Assembly (NCBI RefSeq): GCF_001458395.1
Contig: NZ_CYSR01000030.1
Span: 620,001-684,000 of the forward strand
DNA from: Leisingera aquaemixtae
GTDB taxonomy: Bacteria; Pseudomonadota; Alphaproteobacteria; Rhodobacterales; Rhodobacteraceae
Direction: 5' to 3'
DNA length: 64,000 nucleotides
Under the pieces are notes generated by a model. That model worked only from the letters and a program-made list of their open reading frames with translations. It did no database searches and had not been told where the DNA came from. Shown piece by piece: positions 714-10,751 of this stretch. The position numbers and the translations under genes are program-made. Every line of letters starts with the position of its first letter. Position 1 is the first letter of the stretch.

Positions 714-1892
714 CTACTGAGAATAGGACTGCAGATAGGCGATGACCGCCTCAATATCGCTGTCCTTCTTCAGCCCGGCAAAGGACATCTTGGTGCCCTT
801 CATGTACGACTTGGGCTTGGCCAGAAAGGCCGCCAGCTCAGCTTCGGTCCAGACCAGCCCGTCTTCCGCCGCGGCTGCCATCGCCTTGGAATACCGGAAC
901 CCCTCCGCATGGCCGGCCGGGGCGCCGACAATGCCGTTCAGCACCGGCCCGGTCTTGGACTTGGCGCCATCGCCCACCTGGTGGCAGGCCTTGCACTTCT
1001 TAAAGGTCTTCTCGCCCTGGGCCACCAGTTCCGGATCCAGAACCGCAGCCGTCTGCACCGGTTCCTCTGCGGGCTGTTCCGCCGCGGCGTCCTGCACCGG
1101 TGCAGCGTCCCCGGCCGGCGCCCCGGCAGGGGTCTCAGCAGCGGCCTCGGCACCTTCCTCCTCCGGCGTCACATCCAGCACCATGGCCCGCATGGTGATC
1201 TCGACGCTGTCCTTGCAGTTCTCCATGCAAGGCTCCGGGTTCCAGAAGTGCTTCTCCGCCTCCTGACGGTCGTCCAGGATAAAGCCGTCCGCATTCGGCA
1301 GCTCAACCTCCAGGAAGGTCTCGTCCGACAGCACGAACTCATCATCCACCAGATCGTTGGAATAGAGGATATAGGCCACGATGGCGTAAACCTCATCCGG
1401 CGTTAGCGACTGCGCGTTGCCAAAGGGCATCGACCGGTTCACATAGTCCCATGTGGTCGACAGATAGGGCCAGTAGCTGCCCACCGTCTTCAGCGGGTCC
1501 TCATGGTCCAGCGTGCCCTGCCCGCCTGCCAGCTTGGGCCAGTTGCCCACGCCCTCGGCAAAATCGCCATGGCAGACCGCGCATTTCTCGGCAAAGACCT
1601 CCTCGCCTGTGAACACATCGCCCGAGCCTGCGGGCAGGCCGGTGCCGTCGGAGGCCACGTCCAGGTCCCAAGCGGCGATTTCCTCCGGCAAGGCCGGACG
1701 GCCCAGGCCGAATTTCTCGGCCGCAACAGGCCCAGCACCCAGAGCCGTCAGCGATACAGCCAATAGAATGTTCCGCCCGGCCGACAGGCCGGGCAGCGCC
1801 CGTCCGCCCCCTTGGGCGGGCGCTTCGCTTTCCGCCCGCGGCCGGGCGCTGCCCTCTGCTCTGTTGTTCAGCCTGTTAGGAAACCTCGACAT
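714..1892 (-). CDS. soxD: SoxD, dihaem cytochrome c subunit of sulfane dehydrogenase SoxCD
   Basis: SoxD partners the molybdoprotein SoxC in the periplasm and removes six electrons from the SoxY-bound sulfane sulfur. The 392-residue product has two haem c motifs, CAVCH (residues 104-108) and CKACH (300-304), separated by an Ala/Pro/Glu-rich linker at about 246-284, as in dihaem SoxD. A hydrophobic signal core lies at about 41-58. The leader before it is unusually long because residues about 14-35 are encoded by a palindromic element (1791-1854). The ATG overlaps the soxC stop by 17 bases and has GGCGGAAA upstream. A downstream TTG at the start of the signal core is a less likely start. Last gene of the operon; no soxEFGH follow. 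Confidence 0.93.
   Translation of the reverse strand: MSRFPNRLNNRAEGSARPRAESEAPAQGGGRALPGLSAGRNILLAVSLTALGAGPVAAEKFGLGRPALPEEIAAWDLDVASDGTGLPAGSGDVFTGEEVFAEKCAVCHGDFAEGVGNWPKLAGGQGTLDHEDPLKTVGSYWPYLSTTWDYVNRSMPFGNAQSLTPDEVYAIVAYILYSNDLVDDEFVLSDETFLEVELPNADGFILDDRQEAEKHFWNPEPCMENCKDSVEITMRAMVLDVTPEEEGAEAAAETPAGAPAGDAAPVQDAAAEQPAEEPVQTAAVLDPELVAQGEKTFKKCKACHQVGDGAKSKTGPVLNGIVGAPAGHAEGFRYSKAMAAAAEDGLVWTEAELAAFLAKPKSYMKGTKMSFAGLKKDSDIEAVIAYLQSYSQ
1791..1854. repeat. REP-like mosaic palindrome inside the soxD leader
   Basis: Outer arms GGGCAGCGCCCG (1791-1802) and CGGGCGCTGCCC (1843-1854) are perfect inverted repeats. Inner inverted pieces include GGGCGGGCG (1814-1822) against CCGCCCGC (1832-1839). 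The element is translated in the soxD frame and gives a Gly/Ala/Arg-rich stretch between the initiator region and the signal-peptide core. The same GGGCAGCGCCC core occurs in intergenic hairpins near 53966-54009, which suggests a dispersed palindrome family. Confidence 0.65.
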
Positions 1893-3147
1893 TTTCCGCC
1901 TCCCCGTTTGCCTTGACCCACCAGGTCTGGATGGCGTTGTTGTGATAGATCGAATTCAAGCCCCGCACCTCGCGCAGCTGCGCCTTGGTGGGCTGCACAT
2001 AGCCTGAAGAATCCTTGGCCCGGCTTTGCAGCAGCATCTCCGAGCCGTCCCAATTGATATCCAGATAGAACCGGGTCAGCGCCTTGTCCGTTCCCGGAGC
2101 CGCCAGCCGCGCCTCGGTCCAGTTCTTGCCGCCGTCCAGCGACACATCCACACCGGTGACCGCACCGCGGCCCGACCAGGCCAGACCGGTGATCACCAGC
2201 GGCCCCGCGCCATGCTTAATGGGCGCCTGCGGGCTGGGGCTGGTGACGACGGATTTGGCATCCATCTCCCAGGTCCACTTGCGGCTGATGCCGTTGGCCA
2301 GCGTGTCGGTGTATTTCGAGGTCCCCTCGCGGCTCTCGACCGGCTGGTCCACCCCCTCGACCCGCCGCAGCCATTTGATCCACATGTTGCCTTCCCAGCC
2401 CGGCACCACCAGCCGCACCGGATAGCCATGCTCCTTGCGCAGCGCCTCGCCGTTGGCCTTGAAGGCGACCAGCACGTCGTCCATCGCCTTCTCCAGCGGG
2501 ATCGAGCGCCCGTTCGAGGACGCATCCGCCCCCTCCACATAGACCCATTTGCCCTCCGGCTTGACCCCGGCTTCCTCCAGCAGCGTCCGCAGGGACACGC
2601 CGGAATACTCCATGTTGTGGATCATGCCATGGGTGAACTGCGCGCCGTTCAGCTGCGCGCCGGCCCACTCCATCCCGGAGTTCGCCGCGCATTCGCAGAA
2701 ATAGACGCGATTCTCGCGCGGGAAGCGCTCCAAATCCTCGTATGTGAACACCAGCGGCGTCCCGACCAGGCCGTTGATCATCAGCCTGTAGTCTTCCTTG
2801 CGCAGCTCAATCGCGCCTGAATGATGGCGTTCAAACGCGCAGCCCTGCGGCGTGATCGTGCCGTCCAGCGCGTGGATCGGCGTGAAGTTGATCGAGCTGA
2901 TGGTGTCCGCCGTCAGCCACTCCACATTGCGGCGCACCACGTCGCTTTCGTATTTGATCGGCAGGCCGTAGGGCGTGGCATCCACCCCCTCGCCCAGACC
3001 GCTGGCCCAGTCCTGCACTTCGGTAATCAACGGATCGGGTGCGGCTGCCCTGGCAGCCCCGGCCGCCACCGCCCCTGCGCCGGCAGCTGCCGCGCCGGTC
3101 AGGAACTGACGGCGCGAAGGCGCCAGGCTCTTGGCGTCATCACTCAT
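1876..3147 (-). CDS. soxC: SoxC, molybdenum-cofactor subunit of sulfane dehydrogenase
   Basis: The 423-residue product belongs to the sulfite oxidase family of molybdopterin enzymes and works with SoxD in the periplasmic Sox complex. A Tat signal with twin arginines (SRRQFL, residues 11-16) fits export of a cofactor-loaded protein. The Moco-binding domain covers about residues 90-280, with the candidate molybdenum-ligand Cys in FCECAANSG (about 150-158). The C-terminal third is the Ig-like dimerisation domain of this family (VDVSLDGGKNW is typical). The ATG is preceded by an AAGGAGGCAAAG-like site (reverse strand, 3150-3162). A 116-base gap carrying a SoxR-type dyad separates it from soxB, so soxCD may have an extra promoter. 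Confidence 0.95.
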   Translation of the reverse strand: MSDDAKSLAPSRRQFLTGAAAAGAGAVAAGAARAAAPDPLITEVQDWASGLGEGVDATPYGLPIKYESDVVRRNVEWLTADTISSINFTPIHALDGTITPQGCAFERHHSGAIELRKEDYRLMINGLVGTPLVFTYEDLERFPRENRVYFCECAANSGMEWAGAQLNGAQFTHGMIHNMEYSGVSLRTLLEEAGVKPEGKWVYVEGADASSNGRSIPLEKAMDDVLVAFKANGEALRKEHGYPVRLVVPGWEGNMWIKWLRRVEGVDQPVESREGTSKYTDTLANGISRKWTWEMDAKSVVTSPSPQAPIKHGAGPLVITGLAWSGRGAVTGVDVSLDGGKNWTEARLAAPGTDKALTRFYLDINWDGSEMLLQSRAKDSSGYVQPTKAQLREVRGLNSIYHNNAIQTWWVKANGEAENVEVS

Positions 3148-3171: not shown

Positions 3172-3189
3172 AATTCACGTTCGTGAATT
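3172..3189. promoter_or_regulatory. Candidate SoxR operator before soxC
   Basis: AATTCACG-TT-CGTGAATT has 8-base perfect arms and lies 25-42 bases upstream of the soxC ATG. It matches the ATTCA-N6-TGAAT pattern also seen before soxB, soxX and between soxV and soxS. The assignment to SoxR is inference from that repeated placement. Confidence 0.6.
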
Positions 3190-3263
3190 CAACTGCGCAA
3201 AATTTTTTCGATGGGCCCGCCGCCCGGGCGGGTGTGATCTGCCCCTGCCGGGGCGGGCGCTGA

Positions 3264-4961
3264 TTACGCGCCCGCCACCTGCACAGAGTTGTTGGGGTCC
3301 AGGGTCACGGTGCCAAGCTTGCGGATGTGATCCTCGACCACATCCCAGATCATCGGGCCTTCGGTGCCCTCGTTCACGCTGGCCCAGCCGGCCACCACAT
3401 AGGACTTCGCCGGATCGATCGCCTCGCCCGTTTTCAGCAGGGTCATCTCGCTGATCCGCTCGCCCTGCGGCTTGGTGATGTCGATGCGGTAGCCCATGCC
3501 GCCGATCCGCACCATGTCGCCGCCCTGCTGGTAATAGGGGTCGGGATTGAAGATGTTGTCGGCCACATCCTCCAGGATCACCTTGATGAACTCGCCGGTC
3601 ATTTCGCTCCGGTAGGCCTCGCCGTAGGACATCGAGGTCACGTTCCAGATTTCTTCGCGGGTGATATCGTCCCCGGGCACCAGCGACGGCCCCCAGCGCA
3701 CGCCGGGCGACATGGCGATATCCGCTTCCCGCTCGCTCAGCAGCGCGTCGCAGATCAGGTCGTCCCAGGTGCCGTTGAAATTGCCGCGGCGGTACAGCAG
3801 CGTATCGGTCTGGCCGATCACCTCCTCCAGCTGCGTTTTGTAGGGCGCGCGCTCGGCCTCGATCAGCTGCGCCACCGCAGGATCCGGCGCGATCACGTCC
3901 GAGAACACCGGGATCAGCTTATGCCGCAGCCCCATCAGCTGGCCGTCGCGCACATCCAGATCGACGCGGGAGACAAACTTGCCATTGGAACCCGACGCGA
4001 TGATATGGGTCTTGCCGACCAGCACCGGCTCCGGCAGCGCGTCATGAGTGTGGCCCGACAGGATCACGTCGATGCCCTGCACCTTGCCGGCCATCTTCTT
4101 GTCCACGTCAAAGCCGTTGTGGCTCAGTACCACCACCAGATCGGCGCCCGCCGCACGGACCTCATCCACCATCATCTGCATGTTCTCGTCGCGGATGCCG
4201 AAGGAGTACTCCGGGAACATCCAGCGCGGGTTGGCGATCGGCATGTAAGGGAACGCCTGGCCGATCACCGCCACATTGGCGCCGCCGCGCTCAAAGAACT
4301 TGTAAGGCTTGAACAGCTCCGCCGGCTCGTCCCATTCCGAGTCAAAGATATTTTGGCCAAGCGCAGCAAAGGGCAGGCCCTCGACGATCTCGTTGACCCG
4401 GCCGCTGCCCAGCGTGAACTCCCAGTGAAAGGTCATCGCATCCGGCTTCAGCGCGTTCATCACGTTGACCATGTCCTGGCCCTGGGTGTGATGGCAGGTA
4501 TAGGAGCCGTGCCAGGTGTCGCCGCCGTCAAGCAGCAGCGCATCGGGGCGGTCGGCGCGGATCGCGTTTATGATGGTCGACACCCGGTCCAGCCCGCCGA
4601 CGCGGCCATAGGCCTTGGCGAGCGCAGAGAAGTCATTGTAGGTCAGCGCATAGGCCGAAGGGCTGCCGTCGGCGATCCCATACACCTTTCGGAAGTCGGC
4701 GCCGGTAATGTGGGGCACGTGGCCCTTGTTCTCTCCGACCCCCAGGTTGACCGAGGGTTCGCGGAAATAGATCGGCTTCAGCTGGCCGTGAATATCGGTC
4801 ACATGGATCAGGCTGATATTGCCAAAGGTATCAAACTCCAGCAGTTGGTCCTGGGTCAGCGACTGCTGCGCAGCCAACCGCGCCCAATTGCCAAAGCCAG
4901 ACGCCCCCACCATGGCTGAGGCCGCCATGGAAACCTGCAGAAAATCGCGGCGCGAGATCAT
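3264..4961 (-). CDS. soxB: SoxB, dimanganese thiosulfohydrolase
   Basis: SoxB hydrolyses the terminal sulfone from the SoxY-cysteine S-thiosulfonate and releases sulfate. The 565-residue protein starts with a Tat signal (SRRDFL, residues 3-8). It then shows the metallophosphatase/5'-nucleotidase fold: HVTDIHG (53-59) and DGGDTWHG (about 146-153) for metal binding, LSHNGFD and LSGHTHD as later metal motifs, and a C-terminal nucleotidase-like domain. Length and motif order are those of SoxB rather than UshA; a true 5'-nucleotidase lies elsewhere in the window (36923-38503). The start sits 33 bases from a SoxR-type dyad, so soxB probably has its own promoter as well as read-through from soxA. 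Confidence 0.96.
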   Translation of the reverse strand: MISRRDFLQVSMAASAMVGASGFGNWARLAAQQSLTQDQLLEFDTFGNISLIHVTDIHGQLKPIYFREPSVNLGVGENKGHVPHITGADFRKVYGIADGSPSAYALTYNDFSALAKAYGRVGGLDRVSTIINAIRADRPDALLLDGGDTWHGSYTCHHTQGQDMVNVMNALKPDAMTFHWEFTLGSGRVNEIVEGLPFAALGQNIFDSEWDEPAELFKPYKFFERGGANVAVIGQAFPYMPIANPRWMFPEYSFGIRDENMQMMVDEVRAAGADLVVVLSHNGFDVDKKMAGKVQGIDVILSGHTHDALPEPVLVGKTHIIASGSNGKFVSRVDLDVRDGQLMGLRHKLIPVFSDVIAPDPAVAQLIEAERAPYKTQLEEVIGQTDTLLYRRGNFNGTWDDLICDALLSEREADIAMSPGVRWGPSLVPGDDITREEIWNVTSMSYGEAYRSEMTGEFIKVILEDVADNIFNPDPYYQQGGDMVRIGGMGYRIDITKPQGERISEMTLLKTGEAIDPAKSYVVAGWASVNEGTEGPMIWDVVEDHIRKLGTVTLDPNNSVQVAGA

Positions 4962-4981
4962 GAGTACCGGTATCCTGTATG

Positions 4982-5009
4982 TTCACGTGATATATTCACG
5001 TGAATGAAT
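4982..5009. promoter_or_regulatory. Candidate SoxR operator before soxB
   Basis: ATTCA (4994-4998), six bases, TGAAT (5005-5009). The same stretch has two copies of TTCACGTGA, at 4982-4990 and 4995-5003, 13 bases apart, and a perfect ATTCACGTGAAT palindrome at 4994-5005. It lies 21-48 bases before the soxB ATG in the soxA-soxB gap. Confidence 0.6.
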
Positions 5010-5060
5010 GTTTCAAAAGAGATACGCCCCGCACCTGGAAACAGGCGCGGGGCGCAAAGA

Positions 5061-5912
5061 TCAGTTGCGGACGGAGGGAGCTTCGACCGACAGGCCGTTG
5101 CCGCGCGAGGCGACATAGAGCTCCAGCGCGACAAACTCCGCAGAACCCGGCTTGTAGGTCTCGGCGCGGGTGTCGCGCACGCAGCCCTTGAACCGCGCGT
5201 GGGCGGTGTTCAGCTTGGTGTTCTTCAGACGGTACACCGGGAAGCCGTTGATCTGGCCCTGGCTCAGGTGGTCGGCGCGGATCATGTTGCCATAATTGTC
5301 TTCATGGCAGTTCGCACAGGACAGCTCCAGCTGACCGGTGCGCGTGTAGTACAGCTCCTTGCCCTTCTCCCAGGTCGCCTGGACCGGGCCGTCGATGGCG
5401 ACGTTCACCGGCAGCCCGCGCGACTGGACAGAGATCAGCGCCTCCATCGCGGCCATGTCGCCGCCGGAGTATTTCCACTTCTCCGCGCCCATCTGGTTTT
5501 CACGGCAATCGTTGATCTGCATGTTCAGGGTGCGGACCTCGCCGGCCTCTTCGTTCCACTTCGGGTACACCGCGCGTACGCCTGCCATGCTTTCCGCGGC
5601 ATCGCCGTGGCACGACGCGCAGGATTTGCCCTCGGACCCGTCGGCAGTGTCCCAGGCTTCCTGCGCCTGATCGACAAACACCATCGCCGGGTTCTCGAAG
5701 TCATCCATCTGCAGCGCTTGCGTCTCGTCCGAGCGGAAGTGCCAGCCCGACATCACCTCGTCCAGCACATCCGCCACATGGGCGGGCGCCGCGGCCTTGG
5801 TGATCATCTCGATGTCTTCGTTGACCACCAGCTTGTCGTCATCGGGGCCTGCGCCCGCCGCCATCGGCAGCGCCAGCACAGCGGCAATGGCTGTGATTGC
5901 CTTTTTGTTCAT
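5061..5912 (-). CDS. soxA: SoxA, catalytic c-type cytochrome of SoxAX
   Basis: SoxAX joins thiosulfate to the carrier SoxY by oxidative disulfide formation. This 283-residue form has a Sec signal (about residues 1-21) and two haem sites, CASCH (98-102) and CANCH (199-203), so it is a dihaem SoxA. The Cys in FKGCVRD (residue 244) is at the position of the active-site cysteine haem ligand; another Cys (NDCRE, about 136) may pair with a structural partner. I chose the ATG at 5912 because it has GGGAGGAAAAGG directly upstream and begins the signal peptide; an upstream ATG at 5951 would add 13 polar residues. It sits between soxZ and soxB in the usual XYZAB order. Confidence 0.95.
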   Translation of the reverse strand: MNKKAITAIAAVLALPMAAGAGPDDDKLVVNEDIEMITKAAAPAHVADVLDEVMSGWHFRSDETQALQMDDFENPAMVFVDQAQEAWDTADGSEGKSCASCHGDAAESMAGVRAVYPKWNEEAGEVRTLNMQINDCRENQMGAEKWKYSGGDMAAMEALISVQSRGLPVNVAIDGPVQATWEKGKELYYTRTGQLELSCANCHEDNYGNMIRADHLSQGQINGFPVYRLKNTKLNTAHARFKGCVRDTRAETYKPGSAEFVALELYVASRGNGLSVEAPSVRN

Positions 5913-5987
5913 TCCTTTTCCTCCCTTGGGTGCCTGCCCTGCCCGGTTCACACCGGACAGGACGCGTGCCTGAAGATCCGGAACGGA

Positions 5988-6317
5988 TCAGCCGATGGCG
6001 ATTTGCTTCTTGGTGTCGTAGACGGAGCCGTCGTCGTCATACCAGGTAAAGACGAACTCGCCCGCTTCCGGAACGGTCGCGTCGAATTCGAAATACGGGT
6101 TGGTGGAGATCGCGGGCTCCATCGCGACGTCCAGCACCATGGTGCCATTGAACTCGCAGGTGAAGCGGTTGATGATCGAGCGCGGGATCAGGTTGCCTTC
6201 CTTGTCCTTGCGCTGGCCGCTTTCCATCTTGTGGCTGATCAGCGTCTTGATGGTGACCGCCTCACCGGCAGCAGCGGACTTCGGGACCTTGACGCGGGGT
6301 TTAACACCGGATGCCAT
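5988..6317 (-). CDS. soxZ: SoxZ, sulfur-carrier partner of SoxY
   Basis: SoxZ forms the heterodimer with SoxY that carries the sulfur substrate through the cycle. The 109-residue product has no signal peptide, in keeping with co-export on the Tat signal of SoxY. It is a single Ig-like beta sandwich; conserved pieces include the start KPRVKVP, the Lys/Met-rich SHKMESGQR and the C-terminal FTWYDDDGSVY. It follows soxY by 44 bases in the expected order. Confidence 0.95.
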   Translation of the reverse strand: MASGVKPRVKVPKSAAAGEAVTIKTLISHKMESGQRKDKEGNLIPRSIINRFTCEFNGTMVLDVAMEPAISTNPYFEFDATVPEAGEFVFTWYDDDGSVYDTKKQIAIG

Positions 6318-6361
6318 GTCTTTAATTCTCCTTAAGAATTCCGTTCAGGGAGCGGGCAGCC

Positions 6362-6781
6362 TCAGCCACCGCAGCCGCCGATGGTGACTTTGACGGTGGC
6401 GCTGGCCTTGGCAAAAGAGCCGTCCGCCAGCTTGGCAACCGCAACCACGTCCTGGGTGCCCGCCAGGCGGATCCGGGTGGAGGCCGCCTGCTGCGCCGCG
6501 CCAGGGCCAAAGTTGAAGGTTGCCACCCCCGGTTCCGGGTTGCCGGCGGCCAGCACCAGGATCGCGGTGGCGCCCGGCGCCTCGACCGAAATCGGAACAG
6601 TGTTGCCGTTCTCGGCAATCTCCGGCGCGTTCAGGGTCACGCCCCCTTCGGCCATTTCGGCACCGCCGGTAAAGGCGGCAATCCGGTCATCCGCCGCCGC
6701 GCTCACGCGGAACGGCAGCACGGTAACCATGGCAGCGCCCAGGCCCATCGCCAGGGTCTCACGGCGTGAGAACTCCATCAT
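6362..6781 (-). CDS. soxY: SoxY, covalent sulfur-carrier protein
   Basis: SoxY carries all intermediates on the Cys of its C-terminal swinging arm. The 139-residue product ends in GGCGG (residues 135-139), the diagnostic carrier motif. It starts with a Tat-like leader (SRRETLAMG at about 5-13) that ends near Ala-Ala-Ala at 28-30. AAGGAGAGAT lies directly before the tandem ATG ATG at 6781/6778; either could be used. It is followed by soxZ and preceded by soxX with 54 bases between. Confidence 0.96.
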   Translation of the reverse strand: MMEFSRRETLAMGLGAAMVTVLPFRVSAAADDRIAAFTGGAEMAEGGVTLNAPEIAENGNTVPISVEAPGATAILVLAAGNPEPGVATFNFGPGAAQQAASTRIRLAGTQDVVAVAKLADGSFAKASATVKVTIGGCGG

Positions 6782-6835
6782 ATCTCTCCTTTGACTTCAC
6801 ATCGGTGCAGGGCGCTGAACGGCCCCGCCCGCGCT

Positions 6836-7312
6836 TTACTCTTCTTTCAGCGTCGCGAGGAACGCGACCACATCCTCGATCTCCTGCGCCGTCAGGATCG
6901 GCGGCAGCGGCTCAGCCCCGGCCTCGCCGGTGTAGGCATCGCCCGGTCGGATGAAGCCCTCGACCTTGTAAAAGGCCGGCATCATCGTGCCTTCGAATGT
7001 CATCTTGGCATTGGCGATCAGGCCGCGCAGCTCCTCCACGGTCCAGCGGTCGCCGGCGCCATCCAGCGACGGGCCGATCTCGCCATGGAACGGCACATCC
7101 GCCAGCGCGCTCACCTGGTGGCAGGCGACGCAGTTGCCCTTGGACTTGGAGCCGGCAACAATCGCCCCGTTGGCCGCATCGCCGGCCACGCCGGTCAGCG
7201 AGGCGGCAACCTCACCCGACTCGCCAAACTGCACCGCTTTCGGAGCAACCTCCCCGGCCAAAGCCGCAGTCCCGGCCAGGCTTAGCGCCAGTGTCAGAGA
7301 TGTAAGCTTCAT
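6836..7312 (-). CDS. soxX: SoxX, monohaem c-type cytochrome of SoxAX
   Basis: SoxX is the electron-accepting subunit of the SoxAX complex in the periplasm. From the ATG at 7312 the product has 158 residues, with a Sec signal (MKLTSL..., cleavage near residue 19), one haem motif CVACH (61-65) and a likely axial Met in GTMMPAF (about 108-114). I chose 7312 over the ATG at 7324 because GGGAGGAAAC, which overlaps the upstream ATG, is ideally placed for it. First gene of soxXYZABCD; a SoxR-type dyad lies 88-105 bases upstream. Confidence 0.94.
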   Translation of the reverse strand: MKLTSLTLALSLAGTAALAGEVAPKAVQFGESGEVAASLTGVAGDAANGAIVAGSKSKGNCVACHQVSALADVPFHGEIGPSLDGAGDRWTVEELRGLIANAKMTFEGTMMPAFYKVEGFIRPGDAYTGEAGAEPLPPILTAQEIEDVVAFLATLKEE

Positions 7313-7399
7313 GTTTCCTCCCATTGGCTGCCGCTGTTCCCGGGCGGCTTGCTTAGCTTTGCATACCGTAGGGCACAGCGCCCCCGATACGCAACAACA

Positions 7400-7417
7400 A
7401 ATTCATTATTGTGAATT
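7400..7417. promoter_or_regulatory. Candidate SoxR operator between soxW and soxX
   Basis: AATTCA-TTATTG-TGAATT: ATTCA at 7401-7405, TGAAT at 7412-7416. In Paracoccus pantotrophus SoxR is known to bind the soxW-soxX and soxS-soxV gaps, and this site is in the matching place. Confidence 0.7.
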
Positions 7418-7439
7418 TTTATAGATCGTGCGCAAAACG

Positions 7440-8021
7440 TCAGTCTGTCGACCCATTGTTGCGCTCTTGAATTCGGCGCGCGTGGTAGCGCTGGAAATCT
7501 TCCTCATTATCAAGCGCATACCGCTTTTCATTGACCCATGTAAACATGTCAAGCGTGGTGCCCGCACCAAATGCGCCAGGCATCACCGCCACCGCCGCCT
7601 CAGGCGCGGTGGCATCTTCGCCCACCTCTTCCGGCAGGAACAGAATCGTCGGCGTGAACAGCACCCGCCATTTGCGCGCCATGTCCTTTTCCGGCAGCGT
7701 TTCGCCGTCGAAATCCGTCACCTCCACGTCGCCGTGAAGGTTCAGCTGCACGACAAAGTAATTGTCCTCGATATACTGGCTGATCTCCGGGCGGGGAAAG
7801 ACCTCCTCATGCATCTTGGTGCAATAGACGCAGCCGCGCTGCTCAAAGATCAGCGCCAGCCGTTTGCCCTCGCCGTTGGCCTCTTCCAGATCCTCGCGCA
7901 GGTCCTTGAAGGTGTCCCGCATCCAGGACGTCTTGTGCAGCCCGTCGTCCCCCAGCTCCGCCGCAGCCAGCGGACCGGCAAGAACCGCAACCATTAACAG
8001 TTTTGCAATATTTCTCAGCAT
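7440..8021 (-). CDS. soxW: SoxW, periplasmic thioredoxin-like protein
   Basis: SoxW takes electrons from the membrane protein SoxV and keeps the Sox system reductively active. The 193-residue product has a Sec signal (about 1-20), a thioredoxin fold and the redox motif CVYC (residues 64-67), followed by VLFTPTILFL with the cis-Pro typical of the fold. The ATG at 8021 has GGGAGGTCAAC upstream and lies 19 bases after soxV, so both are cotranscribed. A soxX-directed operator follows its stop. Confidence 0.92.
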   Translation of the reverse strand: MLRNIAKLLMVAVLAGPLAAAELGDDGLHKTSWMRDTFKDLREDLEEANGEGKRLALIFEQRGCVYCTKMHEEVFPRPEISQYIEDNYFVVQLNLHGDVEVTDFDGETLPEKDMARKWRVLFTPTILFLPEEVGEDATAPEAAVAVMPGAFGAGTTLDMFTWVNEKRYALDNEEDFQRYHARRIQERNNGSTD

Positions 8022-8040
8022 GTTGACCTCCCAACCTCAC

Positions 8041-8778
8041 TTACCCGATTGCGCCGAACCCCGGCACCCAGCGGATCATCGCCTCGGCGATCAGCCGCAC
8101 CCCGCCCGTGGCGATCAATACCGCAAACAGCACCAGCATGGCGCCCATGCCCTTCTCCACCCAGGCAAAGGCGCTGCGGTGCCGCGCGACCCAGCCCAGG
8201 AACGGCTTGGCAAACAGTGCTGCAACCACAAAGGGCGCGGTCATGCCCAGCCCGTAGACCAGCAGCAGCAGCCCGCCGCGCCAGACGTCGCCCATGCCGG
8301 AGGCAATCATCAGGATCGACGCCAGCGCCGGCCCCACGCAGGGCGTCCAGCCGAACCCGAACGCCAGCCCCATCAGATAGGCGCCCAGCACGGTAGAGGG
8401 CTCCGCGCTGCTTTCCATCCGCGCCTCGCGGTACAGCAGCGGGATCTTCACCACGCCCAGGAAATGCAGCCCGAACAGCAGCAGCAGCGCCGCCGCGCCG
8501 TAGGACAGAACCTCCAGATACTGGCCGAACAGCTGCCCCAGCGCAGTTGCCCCCATGCCCATCAGCATGAACACCGTGGTGACCCCGGCAGCAAAACAGC
8601 CCGCCGACACCAGCAACCGCCGCTGCGCCCCGGCCTGAATCGTCCCGTCCCCGCGCAGCTCCGCCATCGACAGACCGCCCATGTAGGACAGGTAAAACGG
8701 CACCATCGGCAGGATGCAGGGGGTGAAAAAGCTCAGCAGACCTGCGATCAAGGCGCCGAACAGGGTAATTTCAAGCAT
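8041..8778 (-). CDS. soxV: SoxV, CcdA-type thiol electron transporter
   Basis: SoxV moves reducing power from cytoplasmic thioredoxin across the membrane to SoxW. The 245-residue product has about six membrane helices and the two CcdA Cys sites, FFTPCILPM near the start and WTPCVGPALA in the middle. I chose the ATG at 8778 with GGGGG seven bases upstream, since SoxV and CcdA normally begin just before the first helix. A GTG at 8835 would add 19 residues but lies inside the SoxR-type dyad. It is divergent from soxS and is followed by soxW. Confidence 0.92.
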   Translation of the reverse strand: MLEITLFGALIAGLLSFFTPCILPMVPFYLSYMGGLSMAELRGDGTIQAGAQRRLLVSAGCFAAGVTTVFMLMGMGATALGQLFGQYLEVLSYGAAALLLLFGLHFLGVVKIPLLYREARMESSAEPSTVLGAYLMGLAFGFGWTPCVGPALASILMIASGMGDVWRGGLLLLVYGLGMTAPFVVAALFAKPFLGWVARHRSAFAWVEKGMGAMLVLFAVLIATGGVRLIAEAMIRWVPGFGAIG

Positions 8779-8829
8779 CGCACCCCCAAAGAGGCCCCAC
8801 GCGAACGTTATCCGGGCCCGGCTTGTGTC

Positions 8830-8845
8830 ATTCACATATTCGAAT
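8830..8845. promoter_or_regulatory. Candidate SoxR operator between soxV and soxS
   Basis: ATTCA (8830-8834), six bases, CGAAT (8841-8845), one base off the ATTCA-N6-TGAAT pattern. It lies in the 101-base gap between the divergent soxV and soxS genes, where SoxR binding is known in Paracoccus pantotrophus. Confidence 0.65.
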
Positions 8846-8879
8846 TATGTTGTTTCTCACCGTACGGTCAACAGATGGA

Positions 8880-9272
8880 ATGACACCCATGCGCCCTTTC
8901 CGCCCCTTGGCCGCAGCTGCGGCCGCGGCTTTTGCAGCGCTGCCCGCCTGGGCGGCGGAACTGGTGATGGTCGAACAGCCGGGCTGCGAGTGGTGCGCCC
9001 GCTGGAACGCGGAAATCGCCCCGATCTATCCGAAAACGGCTGAGGGCAAGCACGCCCCTCTGCGCCGTGTGGACCTGCGCGCCCTGCCCGATGATCTGCA
9101 GGTCGCCCGCCGGGTCATGTTCACCCCCACCTTCCTGGTGGTCGAGGACGGAGAGGAACGCGCCCGGCTCGAAGGCTATCCGGGCGAAGATTTTTTTTGG
9201 CCTTTGCTCGCGGATTTGCTAAGCGCCCATACAGGGTTTGTTGATAATACGAACGCCACGGGCGGCAGCTGA
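8880..9272 (+). CDS. soxS: SoxS, periplasmic thioredoxin-fold protein
   Basis: SoxS is a periplasmic thiol protein that in Paracoccus is needed for full sox expression and reactivates SoxYZ. The product (130 residues from 8880, 127 from the ATG at 8889) has an Ala-rich Sec signal ending at AWAAE and a CEWC redox motif shortly after it, then VMFTPTFLVV with the cis-Pro of the thioredoxin fold. A still earlier in-frame ATG (8823) precedes the operator and is unlikely. It is transcribed with soxR, divergently from soxVW. Confidence 0.88.
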   Translation: MTPMRPFRPLAAAAAAAFAALPAWAAELVMVEQPGCEWCARWNAEIAPIYPKTAEGKHAPLRRVDLRALPDDLQVARRVMFTPTFLVVEDGEERARLEGYPGEDFFWPLLADLLSAHTGFVDNTNATGGS

Positions 9273-9332: not shown

Positions 9333-9671
9333 ATGGCATTACCACAGTTCACAGCTGACATGGACCCGGAGGAGATGGACCGGATGGTCGAGAACGCGAC
9401 CAAAGCGTCCAATTTCCTCAAGGCGATCAGCCACGAAGGCCGGCTGATGATCCTGTGCCACCTGGTCTCCGGCGAGAAATCCGTGACCGAGCTGGAGGAA
9501 CTGCTGTCAGCCCGCCAGGCCGCCGTCTCGCAGCAGCTGTCCCGCCTGCGCCTGGAGGGGCTGGTCATTCCCCGCCGGGAAGGCAAGGCGATTTTTTACC
9601 GGCTGGCCGACGACAAGCCCCGCCGGATGCTGGAAGTGGTCTATGACCTGTTCTGCAAGGACGAAGGCTGA
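9333..9671 (+). CDS. soxR: SoxR, ArsR-family repressor of the sox genes
   Basis: This 112-residue winged-helix protein is the ArsR/SmtB-type SoxR that represses sox genes without thiosulfate. The recognition region is the SVTELEELL to AAVSQQLSRLR stretch (about residues 50-75), followed by the wing (RREGKAIFYRL). It has two Cys, C42 (MILCHL) and C108 (LFCKDEG). Their spacing equals that of the persulfide-sensing Cys pair in BigR and SqrR, so it probably senses sulfane sulfur by forming a polysulfide bridge (inference from family). I chose the ATG at 9333 because AGGAG is eight bases upstream; a GTG at 9312 lies in the palindrome. Confidence 0.92.
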   Translation: MALPQFTADMDPEEMDRMVENATKASNFLKAISHEGRLMILCHLVSGEKSVTELEELLSARQAAVSQQLSRLRLEGLVIPRREGKAIFYRLADDKPRRMLEVVYDLFCKDEG

Positions 9672-9692: not shown

Positions 9693-10751
9693 ATGTTTGA
9701 CCTCCTGACAGAACACCAGCTGGCCGCCTGCATCGGGCTGCTGGGCGGTGTGCTGCTGGGGCTTGCCGCCCGGCTGGGGCGGTTCTGCACTTTGGGCGCG
9801 ATCGAAGATCTGCTCTATGGCGGCTCATCCCTCAGGATGCGGATGTGGGGCGTGGCGATCGGCGTGGCGGTCATCTCCAGCTTCGGCCTGATCGGGCTGG
9901 GTCTGGCGGATGCGGGCCAGTCCTTTTACCTCTCGATCCGCTGGATGCCCGCCGCCTCGATCCTGGGCGGGCTGATGTTCGGCTACGGCATGGCGCTCAG
10001 CGGCAACTGCGGCTACGGCGCCATTGCCCGGCTTGGCGGCGGCGACCTGCGTAGCTTCGTGATCGTGCTGGTGATGGGCGTCTCCACCTATGTGGTGCTG
10101 GCAGGCCCGCTTGCCCCGTTGCGCAATTTCTTCTTCGAACAGCAGGATGTCACCACGGAAATCCCGCCGGGCCTCGCCCATTATGCCGCCGCCTGGAGCG
10201 GGCTGCCGCTGGCCGCCACCGGCCTCGCCGCGGGCCTTCTGATCCTGCTGGCTTCCCTCGCCAGCGCCGAACTGCGCCGCGACAGGCAGGCGCTGTTCTG
10301 GTCGGCCGTGGTGGGGCTGGCGGTGGCCTCCGGCTGGGCCGGAACCACCTACCTCAACACCGCAGGGTTCGAGGCGCTGCCGGTGGTCTCCCACTCCTTC
10401 TCGGCTCCGTTGGGCGAGACCATCCTGTGGACCATGACCGGATCCCTGCGCCCCCTGTCGTTCGCCGTCGGCTCCATCGCCGGGGTCTGGACCGGCGCCT
10501 TCCTCGGCTCGCTGATCAAGGGCCATTTCCGCTGGGAGGCCTGCGAGGACCCGCGCGAGCTGCGCCGCCAGATCATCGGCGCCGCGATCATGGGCGCTGG
10601 CGCGGTGATTGCGATGGGCTGCACCGTCGGCCAGGGCCTCAGCGCGTTTTCGCTGCTGGCCGTCTCGGCGCCTGTCACCATGCTGGCAATTTTCGCCGGC
10701 GCCGCCATCGGGCTGCGGCAGCTGATCGAAGGCTTCCGGCCGGCAGAATGA
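9693..10751 (+). CDS. soxT: YeeE/YedE-family permease (SoxT-like, putative thiosulfate importer)
   Basis: A 352-residue protein with about nine or ten membrane helices and the three conserved Cys sites of the YeeE/YedE family: RFCTLGA (about residue 31), SGNCGYGA (about 106) and MGCTVGQG (about 309). In characterised family members such as TsuA these Cys relay thiosulfate through the membrane; sox-linked members are called SoxT. It starts 21 bases after soxR, so it is cotranscribed with soxSR. Thiosulfate or sulfite import as a signal for SoxR, or as a sulfur source, fits the context, but direction and substrate are inferred. Confidence 0.8.
   Translation: MFDLLTEHQLAACIGLLGGVLLGLAARLGRFCTLGAIEDLLYGGSSLRMRMWGVAIGVAVISSFGLIGLGLADAGQSFYLSIRWMPAASILGGLMFGYGMALSGNCGYGAIARLGGGDLRSFVIVLVMGVSTYVVLAGPLAPLRNFFFEQQDVTTEIPPGLAHYAAAWSGLPLAATGLAAGLLILLASLASAELRRDRQALFWSAVVGLAVASGWAGTTYLNTAGFEALPVVSHSFSAPLGETILWTMTGSLRPLSFAVGSIAGVWTGAFLGSLIKGHFRWEACEDPRELRRQIIGAAIMGAGAVIAMGCTVGQGLSAFSLLAVSAPVTMLAIFAGAAIGLRQLIEGFRPAE

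Follow-up and report, generated by a model that had tools for sequence, protein, structure and literature searches.

Is the sox cluster of Leisingera aquaemixtae one operon, or is it a set of transcription units that answer to the same repressor? The question is raised by a stretch of 64,000 nucleotides (nt) from this bacterium (assembly GCF_001458395.1, contig NZ_CYSR01000030.1, positions 620,001–684,000), hereafter called the window, meaning the whole stretch that was analyzed. Its annotation places a sox cluster, soxRSVWXYZABCD, around four inverted repeats (dyads) of the form ATTCA-N6-TGAAT, which lie before soxC, soxB, and soxX and between soxV and soxS. These dyads are probably operators of the ArsR-family regulator SoxR and would split the cluster into the co-regulated units soxVW, soxXYZA, soxB, and soxCD; soxH, which is unlinked, would respond in trans.

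The dyads in the window and the genome

A preliminary description had placed four such dyads in the window, and a scan of the whole window recovers each of them.

3173–3188, minus strand: putative SoxR/SqrR-type dyad before soxC; plus strand ATTCACGTTCGTGAAT, coding strand ATTCACGAACGTGAAT; 25 nt to the ATG
4994–5009, minus strand: putative SoxR/SqrR-type dyad before soxB; plus strand ATTCACGTGAATGAAT, coding strand ATTCATTCACGTGAAT; 32 nt to the ATG
7401–7416, minus strand: putative SoxR/SqrR-type dyad before soxX; plus strand ATTCATTATTGTGAAT, coding strand ATTCACAATAATGAAT; 88 nt to the ATG
8830–8845, minus strand: dyad between the divergent soxV and soxS; plus strand ATTCACATATTCGAAT; 51 nt to the soxV start and 43 nt to the soxS start

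These four are the only matches to ATTCA-N6-TGAAT with at most one mismatch in the 64 kilobases (kb), where 0.71 are expected (standard deviation 0.82) and one of 100 shuffled windows gave four. The recognition sequence deduced for SqrR, ATTC-N8-GAAT (PMC9774250), is exact at all four dyads and found nowhere else in the window. All four fit the SqrR/SoxR class, and the soxS–soxV dyad, in spite of its CGAAT, is no exception because it is exact against this sequence.

The 4.61-Mb genome contains four perfect ATTCA-N6-TGAAT sites, three of which are located inside the sox cluster and the fourth before soxH. The chance that three of four randomly placed sites fall within one given 9 kb is about 3e-8. 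Sites with one mismatch, among them the soxS–soxV dyad, number 40 in the genome, which is near the chance value of about 51 derived from the window estimate. Ten sox-bearing genomes of the genus have two to six perfect dyads each, and five genomes of the same genus without SoxB have 0, 2, 1, 0, and 2.

Conservation in relatives

The comparison covers 193 relatives. Set one consists of the best 80 loci by SoxB, 62 of them with the gene order of the window, and the held-out set two of 113 loci. The latter goes back to a single sample of 295 genomes from the family; 181 of these encode SoxB at E ≤ 1e-200. Of the 129 loci taken, 16 duplicated set one and were removed. As controls serve the V–W, X–Y, Y–Z, Z–A, C–D, R–S, and yeeE–R gaps of the same clusters (gaps are named here by the letters of the flanking sox genes), amounting to 89.7 kb of scanned sequence compared with 25.5 kb for the soxA–soxB gaps. 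For the final gap limits, each gene was extended by its query ends, and gaps below 30 or above 4000 bases (with padding) were dropped. Only 47 C–D gaps are counted since these genes mostly overlap and short gaps were dropped. Thirteen gaps of rare gene orders (D–W, five; D–yeeE, three; yeeE–V, two; R–yeeE, S–R, and Z–B), all siteless, are excluded from the control sum. Compared with the first, rough limits, the A–B counts are equal, the B–C counts at up to one mismatch go from 26/76 plus 21/108 to 26/76 plus 20/105, and a single one-mismatch R–S control match disappears. The rough limits underlie the exhaustive dyad scan, the dyad-to-soxB distance, the follow-on sequences, the folding z scores, and the tree analysis.

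With at most one mismatch, ATTCA-N6-TGAAT occurs before soxX in 144 of 167 relatives (W–X and V–X gaps together), before soxB in 57 of 192, before soxC in 46 of 181, and in the soxS–soxV gap in 8 of 163, compared with none of 1048 control gaps. Allowing two mismatches, the soxB site is present in 148 of 192 relatives and the controls show 22 of 1048. The dyads are conserved, to different degrees, before their putative target genes and absent from the control gaps at up to one mismatch. Of the two internal dyads, which had been noticed in a single sequence, the soxB site is widely kept and the soxC site is kept in about a quarter of the relatives. The held-out set alone gives 79/112 for the soxB site (up to two mismatches) and 20/105 for the soxC site (up to one); in this set, the soxB site follows the identity of SoxB, with 59/71 at 80% or above, 13/19 at 76 to 80%, and 7/22 below.

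The independently published SqrR sequence ATTC-N8-GAAT was counted in the same gaps. Exact matches are found in 140/167 W–X/V–X, 50/192 A–B, 44/181 B–C, and 4/163 S–V gaps and in 0/1048 controls; at one mismatch, the numbers are 156, 140, 54, and 58 for the same denominators and 10/1048 for the controls. The soxX site (up to one mismatch) and the soxB site (up to two) occur together in 119 loci, soxX alone in 25, soxB alone in 8, and neither in 15, a tally that ignores kinship.

An exhaustive scan scored all 1024 five-base half-sites with 15 spacers, that is, 15,360 dyads, in each gap. Herein, ATTCA-N6 ranks first in the W–X and in the B–C gaps, at zero as well as at one mismatch. In the A–B gaps at one mismatch, it is second with 57 loci to CATTC-N8 with 59, which is the same dyad shifted by one. 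No enrichment of ATTCA-N6 is seen in the Z–A, R–S, or S–V gaps.

Two side observations concern these loci. In relatives, sequences like TTTGTTGTTG and TTTGATGATG come immediately after the soxX and soxC dyads (window 7388–7400; soxB–soxC gaps of relatives). Three loci titled Nocardioides, Flavobacteriia, and Enemella (L018, L046, and L050) contain sox clusters with SoxB 85 to 94% identical to that of the window and are probably mislabeled or contaminated assemblies.

The soxA–soxB gap

The soxA–soxB gap contains, in addition to its dyad, a conserved hairpin.

5023–5056, minus strand: terminator-like hairpin of 15 pairs with a T-rich tail, between soxA and soxB

In an alignment of 40 sequences (39 of 69 candidate loci and the window), 97.2% of the cells are paired and 8 of 10 pairs are changed on both sides; the covariation is 0.514 compared with 0.192 for shuffled and at most 0.159 for slid alignments. 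By a simple rule, 56 of 80 soxA–soxB gaps are terminator-like compared with 0 to 11 in every other gap (68–79 loci). A folding z score below −2, with shuffles that preserve base composition only, is reached in 146 of 148 loci in this gap, in 11 of 38 before soxC, and in 12 of 69 before soxX. The hairpin with its T-rich tail is the roseobacter consensus, and its stable, covarying, G+C-rich stem together with the tail makes it a predicted intrinsic terminator. Downstream of the hairpin comes the soxB dyad, whose median distance to soxB in the relatives is 30 nt.

The soxB–soxC gap

Where the soxC site is present, its position is narrow: in 42 of 46 loci, its distance to soxC is 18 to 32 nt. Among gaps of 75 nt or more, 41 of 71 contain it, compared with 5 of 110 shorter ones. 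In four loci (L049, L053, L067, and L157), an insert of 1.1 to 3.2 kb separates soxB from soxC and contains recurring long ORFs (open reading frames) that, as we interpret them, lie on the opposite strand, with overlapping plus-strand ORFs also present; all four retain the dyad 27 to 70 nt before soxC. Three of these (L053, L067, and L157) have a tandem pair of dyads before soxC, 40 bp apart and downstream of the inserted ORFs. The window's own soxB–soxC gap folds at −29.3 kcal/mol, a raw energy without comparison to shuffles.

On a SoxB tree (FastTree), the state of the soxC site switches at least 31 times, which provides a natural series for testing operon splitting. Gap length and soxC site were also compared in independent pairs on this tree; about 5 of 20 change in the same direction and none in the opposite one (median p 0.06), which is not decisive.

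The soxS–soxV gap

The dyad in this gap overlaps a promoter-like sequence of soxV.

8844–8871, minus strand: soxV promoter-like sequence TTGACC-N16-CATAAT, 10 of 12 consensus bases

TTGAC and CATAAT are conserved at soxV in the alignment of relatives, and the first two bases of the dyad are the last two of the −10 box, a fitting place for a repressor. Most relatives have a related but different sequence at the position of the dyad. The best dyad of the exhaustive scan in this gap is ACATA-N7-TATGT (84/163, one mismatch), a well-conserved palindrome that spans the soxV −10 region in relatives (L017–L096).

The unlinked soxH

The fourth perfect dyad of the genome (C2:336825) is located 29 nt before the ATG of a gene outside the cluster.

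Genome G000, C2:336780–337772 (L016:4781–5776): SoxH-like gene preceded by a perfect dyad

The predicted product is 72% identical to that of a gene which follows downstream of soxD in the sox locus of Paracoccus pantotrophus, and the gene is assigned as soxH by position and family resemblance. A search gave 14 matches in 41 genomes. All 10 same-genus orthologs of at least 89% identity, its own included, are immediately preceded by a dyad that deviates at no more than one position, and in some genomes of the genus the 16-mer ATTCACACATGCGAAT of the soxB dyad recurs there. The four distant matches (38–65%) have no dyad directly before the gene; three of these relatives (L107–L109) show one with at most one mismatch about 940 nt upstream instead.

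The regulator SoxR

SoxR of the window matches Pfam HTH_5 above the cutoff and the NCBIfam BigR model with 99 bits, below its cutoff of 155. Its top Protein Data Bank match, 13ct/6o8l (E 4e-35), which we take to be SqrR, is labeled ArsR family. From these matches, an ArsR/SmtB fold is predicted. Cys42 and Cys108 are both kept in SoxR of 155 of 160 relatives. In three Paracoccus SoxR proteins (L111, L114, and L115), Glu or Gly replaces Cys108; hence, their sulfur sensing may differ from a two-cysteine bridge.

A proposed multi-unit SoxR regulon and its alternatives

Since the same dyad precedes each unit, several units under one repressor are the simplest reading. The units would be as follows.

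7440–8778, minus strand: proposed unit soxVW
5061–7312, minus strand: proposed unit soxXYZA
3264–4961, minus strand: proposed unit soxB
714–3147, minus strand: proposed unit soxCD

SoxR, as one ArsR-family sulfur sensor, would hold soxVW (with the divergent soxSR), soxXYZA, soxB, and soxCD off together, and the unlinked soxH would be a further member of the regulon in trans. Without sulfur, reduced SoxR would sit on the dyads; sulfane sulfur would bridge its two cysteines, whereupon SoxR would leave the DNA and all units would be made. The soxA–soxB hairpin would end or weaken the upstream transcript, and soxB would restart under its own SoxR site. The preliminary description had spoken of separate control of SoxAX/YZ, SoxB, and SoxCD; several units are indeed suggested, but separate control is too strong a term. 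The hairpin and the four split clusters are what supports units best; the case is weakest at the soxB site, which is degenerate.

Several observations weigh against this reading. The soxB site is a perfect ATTCA-N6-TGAAT in just 9 of 192 relatives, and the element usually ends in GCGCAT or GCGAAT instead of TGAAT. The soxC site is missing (at up to one mismatch) in 135 of 181 relatives, including all nine loci with a soxB–soxC gap of 466 to 515 nt; three of these loci were translated and have a same-strand ORF inside the gap, probably the DsrE-family orf that Sulfitobacter has between soxB and soxC (PMC11034169). Terminators before soxC are not supported as a general feature, with 5 of 26 dyad-bearing gaps terminator-like by the rule and 11 of 38 having a z score below −2. 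No sigma-70-like hexamers were found before soxX, soxB, or soxC in the window, and promoter repression at these genes is for this reason something we infer. Six loci with soxV have no soxR in the stretch examined, with a mixed outcome for the sites: L222 and L245 have lost both the soxX and the soxB site, L162 has a soxX site at two mismatches and no soxB site, and L160, L188, and L193 keep both, where the L193 stretch begins inside soxV and the L188 genome has two SoxR-family members elsewhere.

The missing hexamers before soxB and soxC would suit a different arrangement, in which the internal dyads are SoxR roadblocks to elongating polymerase on one long transcript from soxX (or soxV) and the hairpin stabilizes or attenuates the mRNA. 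In its favor, Paracoccus loci without a dyad have, by eye, a hairpin without a clear T-run at the same place, and two-thirds to three-quarters of the relatives have no soxC site, with soxB–soxC gaps that are mostly short. Yet the four genomes with kilobase inserts of opposite-strand ORFs still keep the site just before soxC, and the T-rich tail of the roseobacter hairpin, with its concentration of terminator-like gaps at soxA–soxB, also weighs against this arrangement. We consider roadblocks possible though unlikely. The identity of the bound protein is a separate matter because the genome encodes an SqrR-like SoxR paralog.

Genome G000, C10:179103–179402 (L150): SqrR-like SoxR paralog

This protein, which is 56% identical to SoxR, shares its cysteine pair, and resembles it in the putative recognition helix, might bind the sites alone or with SoxR; the deduced SqrR site is the very sequence found here, and two such repressors, sHdrR and SoxR, bind shared probes in Hyphomicrobium (PMC12423496). 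However, the sites cluster at sox genes, and in 7 of 30 genomes with the soxB site (up to one mismatch), the sox-cluster SoxR is the sole family member at E ≤ 1e-12, which makes the paralog an improbable candidate. These 30 are 29 of the 30 held-out genomes with the soxB site and, in addition, G008. In 3.3 kb around the paralog, no sulfur gene was recognized in a reading by eye.

About as improbable is another regulator at soxB, for which the resemblance to the SoxR motif would be partial or accidental. CACAT-N4-ATGTG overlaps the soxB dyad with a shift of about 4 bp (e.g., in L026, L039, and L072), perhaps as the mark of another regulator or of a second register, and is the commonest exact dyad of the A–B gaps with 38 of 192 compared with 9 for ATTCA-N6, which is fourteenth at zero mismatches; the usual ending of the element points the same way. 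On the other side, the soxB dyad of the window is perfect, its 16-mer also stands before soxH, and the exact SqrR sequence separates the A–B gaps from the controls. Chance similarity of A+T-rich intergenic DNA, to which the single shuffle with four sites might be counted, is ruled out for practical purposes by the empty control gaps, by the first rank of 15,360 before soxX and soxC, and by the location of three of the genome's four perfect sites inside a single cluster.

Should soxB and soxCD each be transcribed from a separate start, roseobacter sox would not be one operon. The gene soxB is widely used as a marker and would then report its own promoter, and the logic of polar mutants would fail. 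SoxCD, on which it depends whether oxidation runs to completion or sulfur is stored, could then be set apart from the other sox functions. A bolder idea, which is doubtful at present, is that the sox operon was remodeled in roseobacters into several SoxR-controlled units, with graded operators that determine in which order, or in what ratio, these are induced. The carrier and SoxAX would come first, SoxB next, and SoxCD last, and thiosulfate oxidation could thereby be adjusted between partial and full. The grading, equally tentative, would run from a nearly invariant operator at soxX over a degenerate one at soxB to an optional one at soxC, with a trans copy at soxH. Roseobacters have been proposed as main thiosulfate oxidizers in marine biofilms (PMC10090131).

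Genes of the cluster

714–1892, minus strand: soxD, named by position; cytochrome c matches
1876–3147, minus strand: soxC, passes NCBIfam sox model
3264–4961, minus strand: soxB, passes NCBIfam sox model
5061–5912, minus strand: soxA, passes NCBIfam sox model
5988–6317, minus strand: soxZ, passes NCBIfam sox model
6362–6778, minus strand: soxY, passes NCBIfam sox model
6836–7312, minus strand: soxX, passes NCBIfam sox model
7440–8021, minus strand: soxW, named by position and thioredoxin/DsbD-type family matches
8041–8778, minus strand: soxV, named by position and DsbD/thioredoxin-type family matches
8889–9272, plus strand: soxS, thioredoxin-like by position; family match below the Pfam cutoff
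9333–9671, plus strand: soxR, named by position; ArsR-family match; Cys42 and Cys108
9693–10751, plus strand: YeeE/SoxT-like gene

Comparison with known systems

Work from 2005 (Rother) and 2007 (Mandal) is said to describe SoxR as a repressor in P. pantotrophus and Pseudaminobacter salicylatoxidans, reportedly with control at the soxW–soxX gap as well. SoxR as a repressor of sox genes is treated in PMC5748708 and PMC11582611, and SoxR-regulated promoters between soxS and soxV in PMC5748708. These systems share with the window the ArsR family, the soxS neighbor, and the gene order, and two of the four dyads fall in the soxS–soxV and soxW–soxX gaps, which had been named as binding regions of P. 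pantotrophus SoxR. The P. pantotrophus soxS–soxV gap contains CATAATTTGAACATAGGAAT, which closely resembles the element of roseobacters in that gap. The loci of P. pantotrophus, P. versutus, and P. denitrificans have no perfect ATTC-N8-GAAT and no dyad (up to two mismatches) before soxB or soxC, and their SoxR proteins have Glu or Gly at the position of the window's Cys108. Together with Rhodobacter CZR27, Ciceribacter, and Paracoccus SMMA_5, none of six outside loci has a perfect ATTC-N8-GAAT in the stretches examined, and none has a dyad (up to two mismatches) in front of soxB. The same holds for soxC wherever its gap was long enough to scan; the Rhodobacter soxB–soxC gap measures about 20 nt. 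Because they are absent from these outside loci, the internal sites are, on present evidence, a feature of the roseobacter side. A Ruegeria plasmid has the soxX site exact and the soxB site at two mismatches. In the accessible open PMC literature, no description of roseobacter SoxR sites upstream of soxB or soxC was found, and PMC9995734 makes no mention of the motif; a description in print may exist.

Rhodobacter SqrR and Escherichia coli YgaV resemble the present system in the ATTC-N8-GAAT site and the protein family (PMC9774250) and differ in their target genes, which include no sox cluster. In Bradyrhizobium, deletion of soxR reduces the thiosulfate response of soxS, soxV, soxW, and soxY1 from 50- to 4500-fold to about 1 (PMC5748708). 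In the roseobacter M382, in which the sox genes are arranged differently from the usual order, thiosulfate raises all sox genes, soxC more than 14-fold (PMC10090131), a response that would fit one repressor over all units without showing separate starts.

SoxR of Hyphomicrobium denitrificans likewise binds several regions of one sulfur-oxidation locus, with four of five probes bound, and is released by sulfur (PMC10451225). Its cysteines 50 and 116 compare with 42 and 108 here, both pairs being 66 residues apart (PMC10451225). It differs in that soxXA is divergent from soxYZB (PMC10451225, PMC12423496) and that the bound probes (soxT1A–shdrR, lipS1, dsrE3C, and soxA–soxY) include none directly before soxB or soxC (PMC10451225). 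The locus of L. aquaemixtae is a known kind of system in a new arrangement, which is shared in part by many related marine bacteria.

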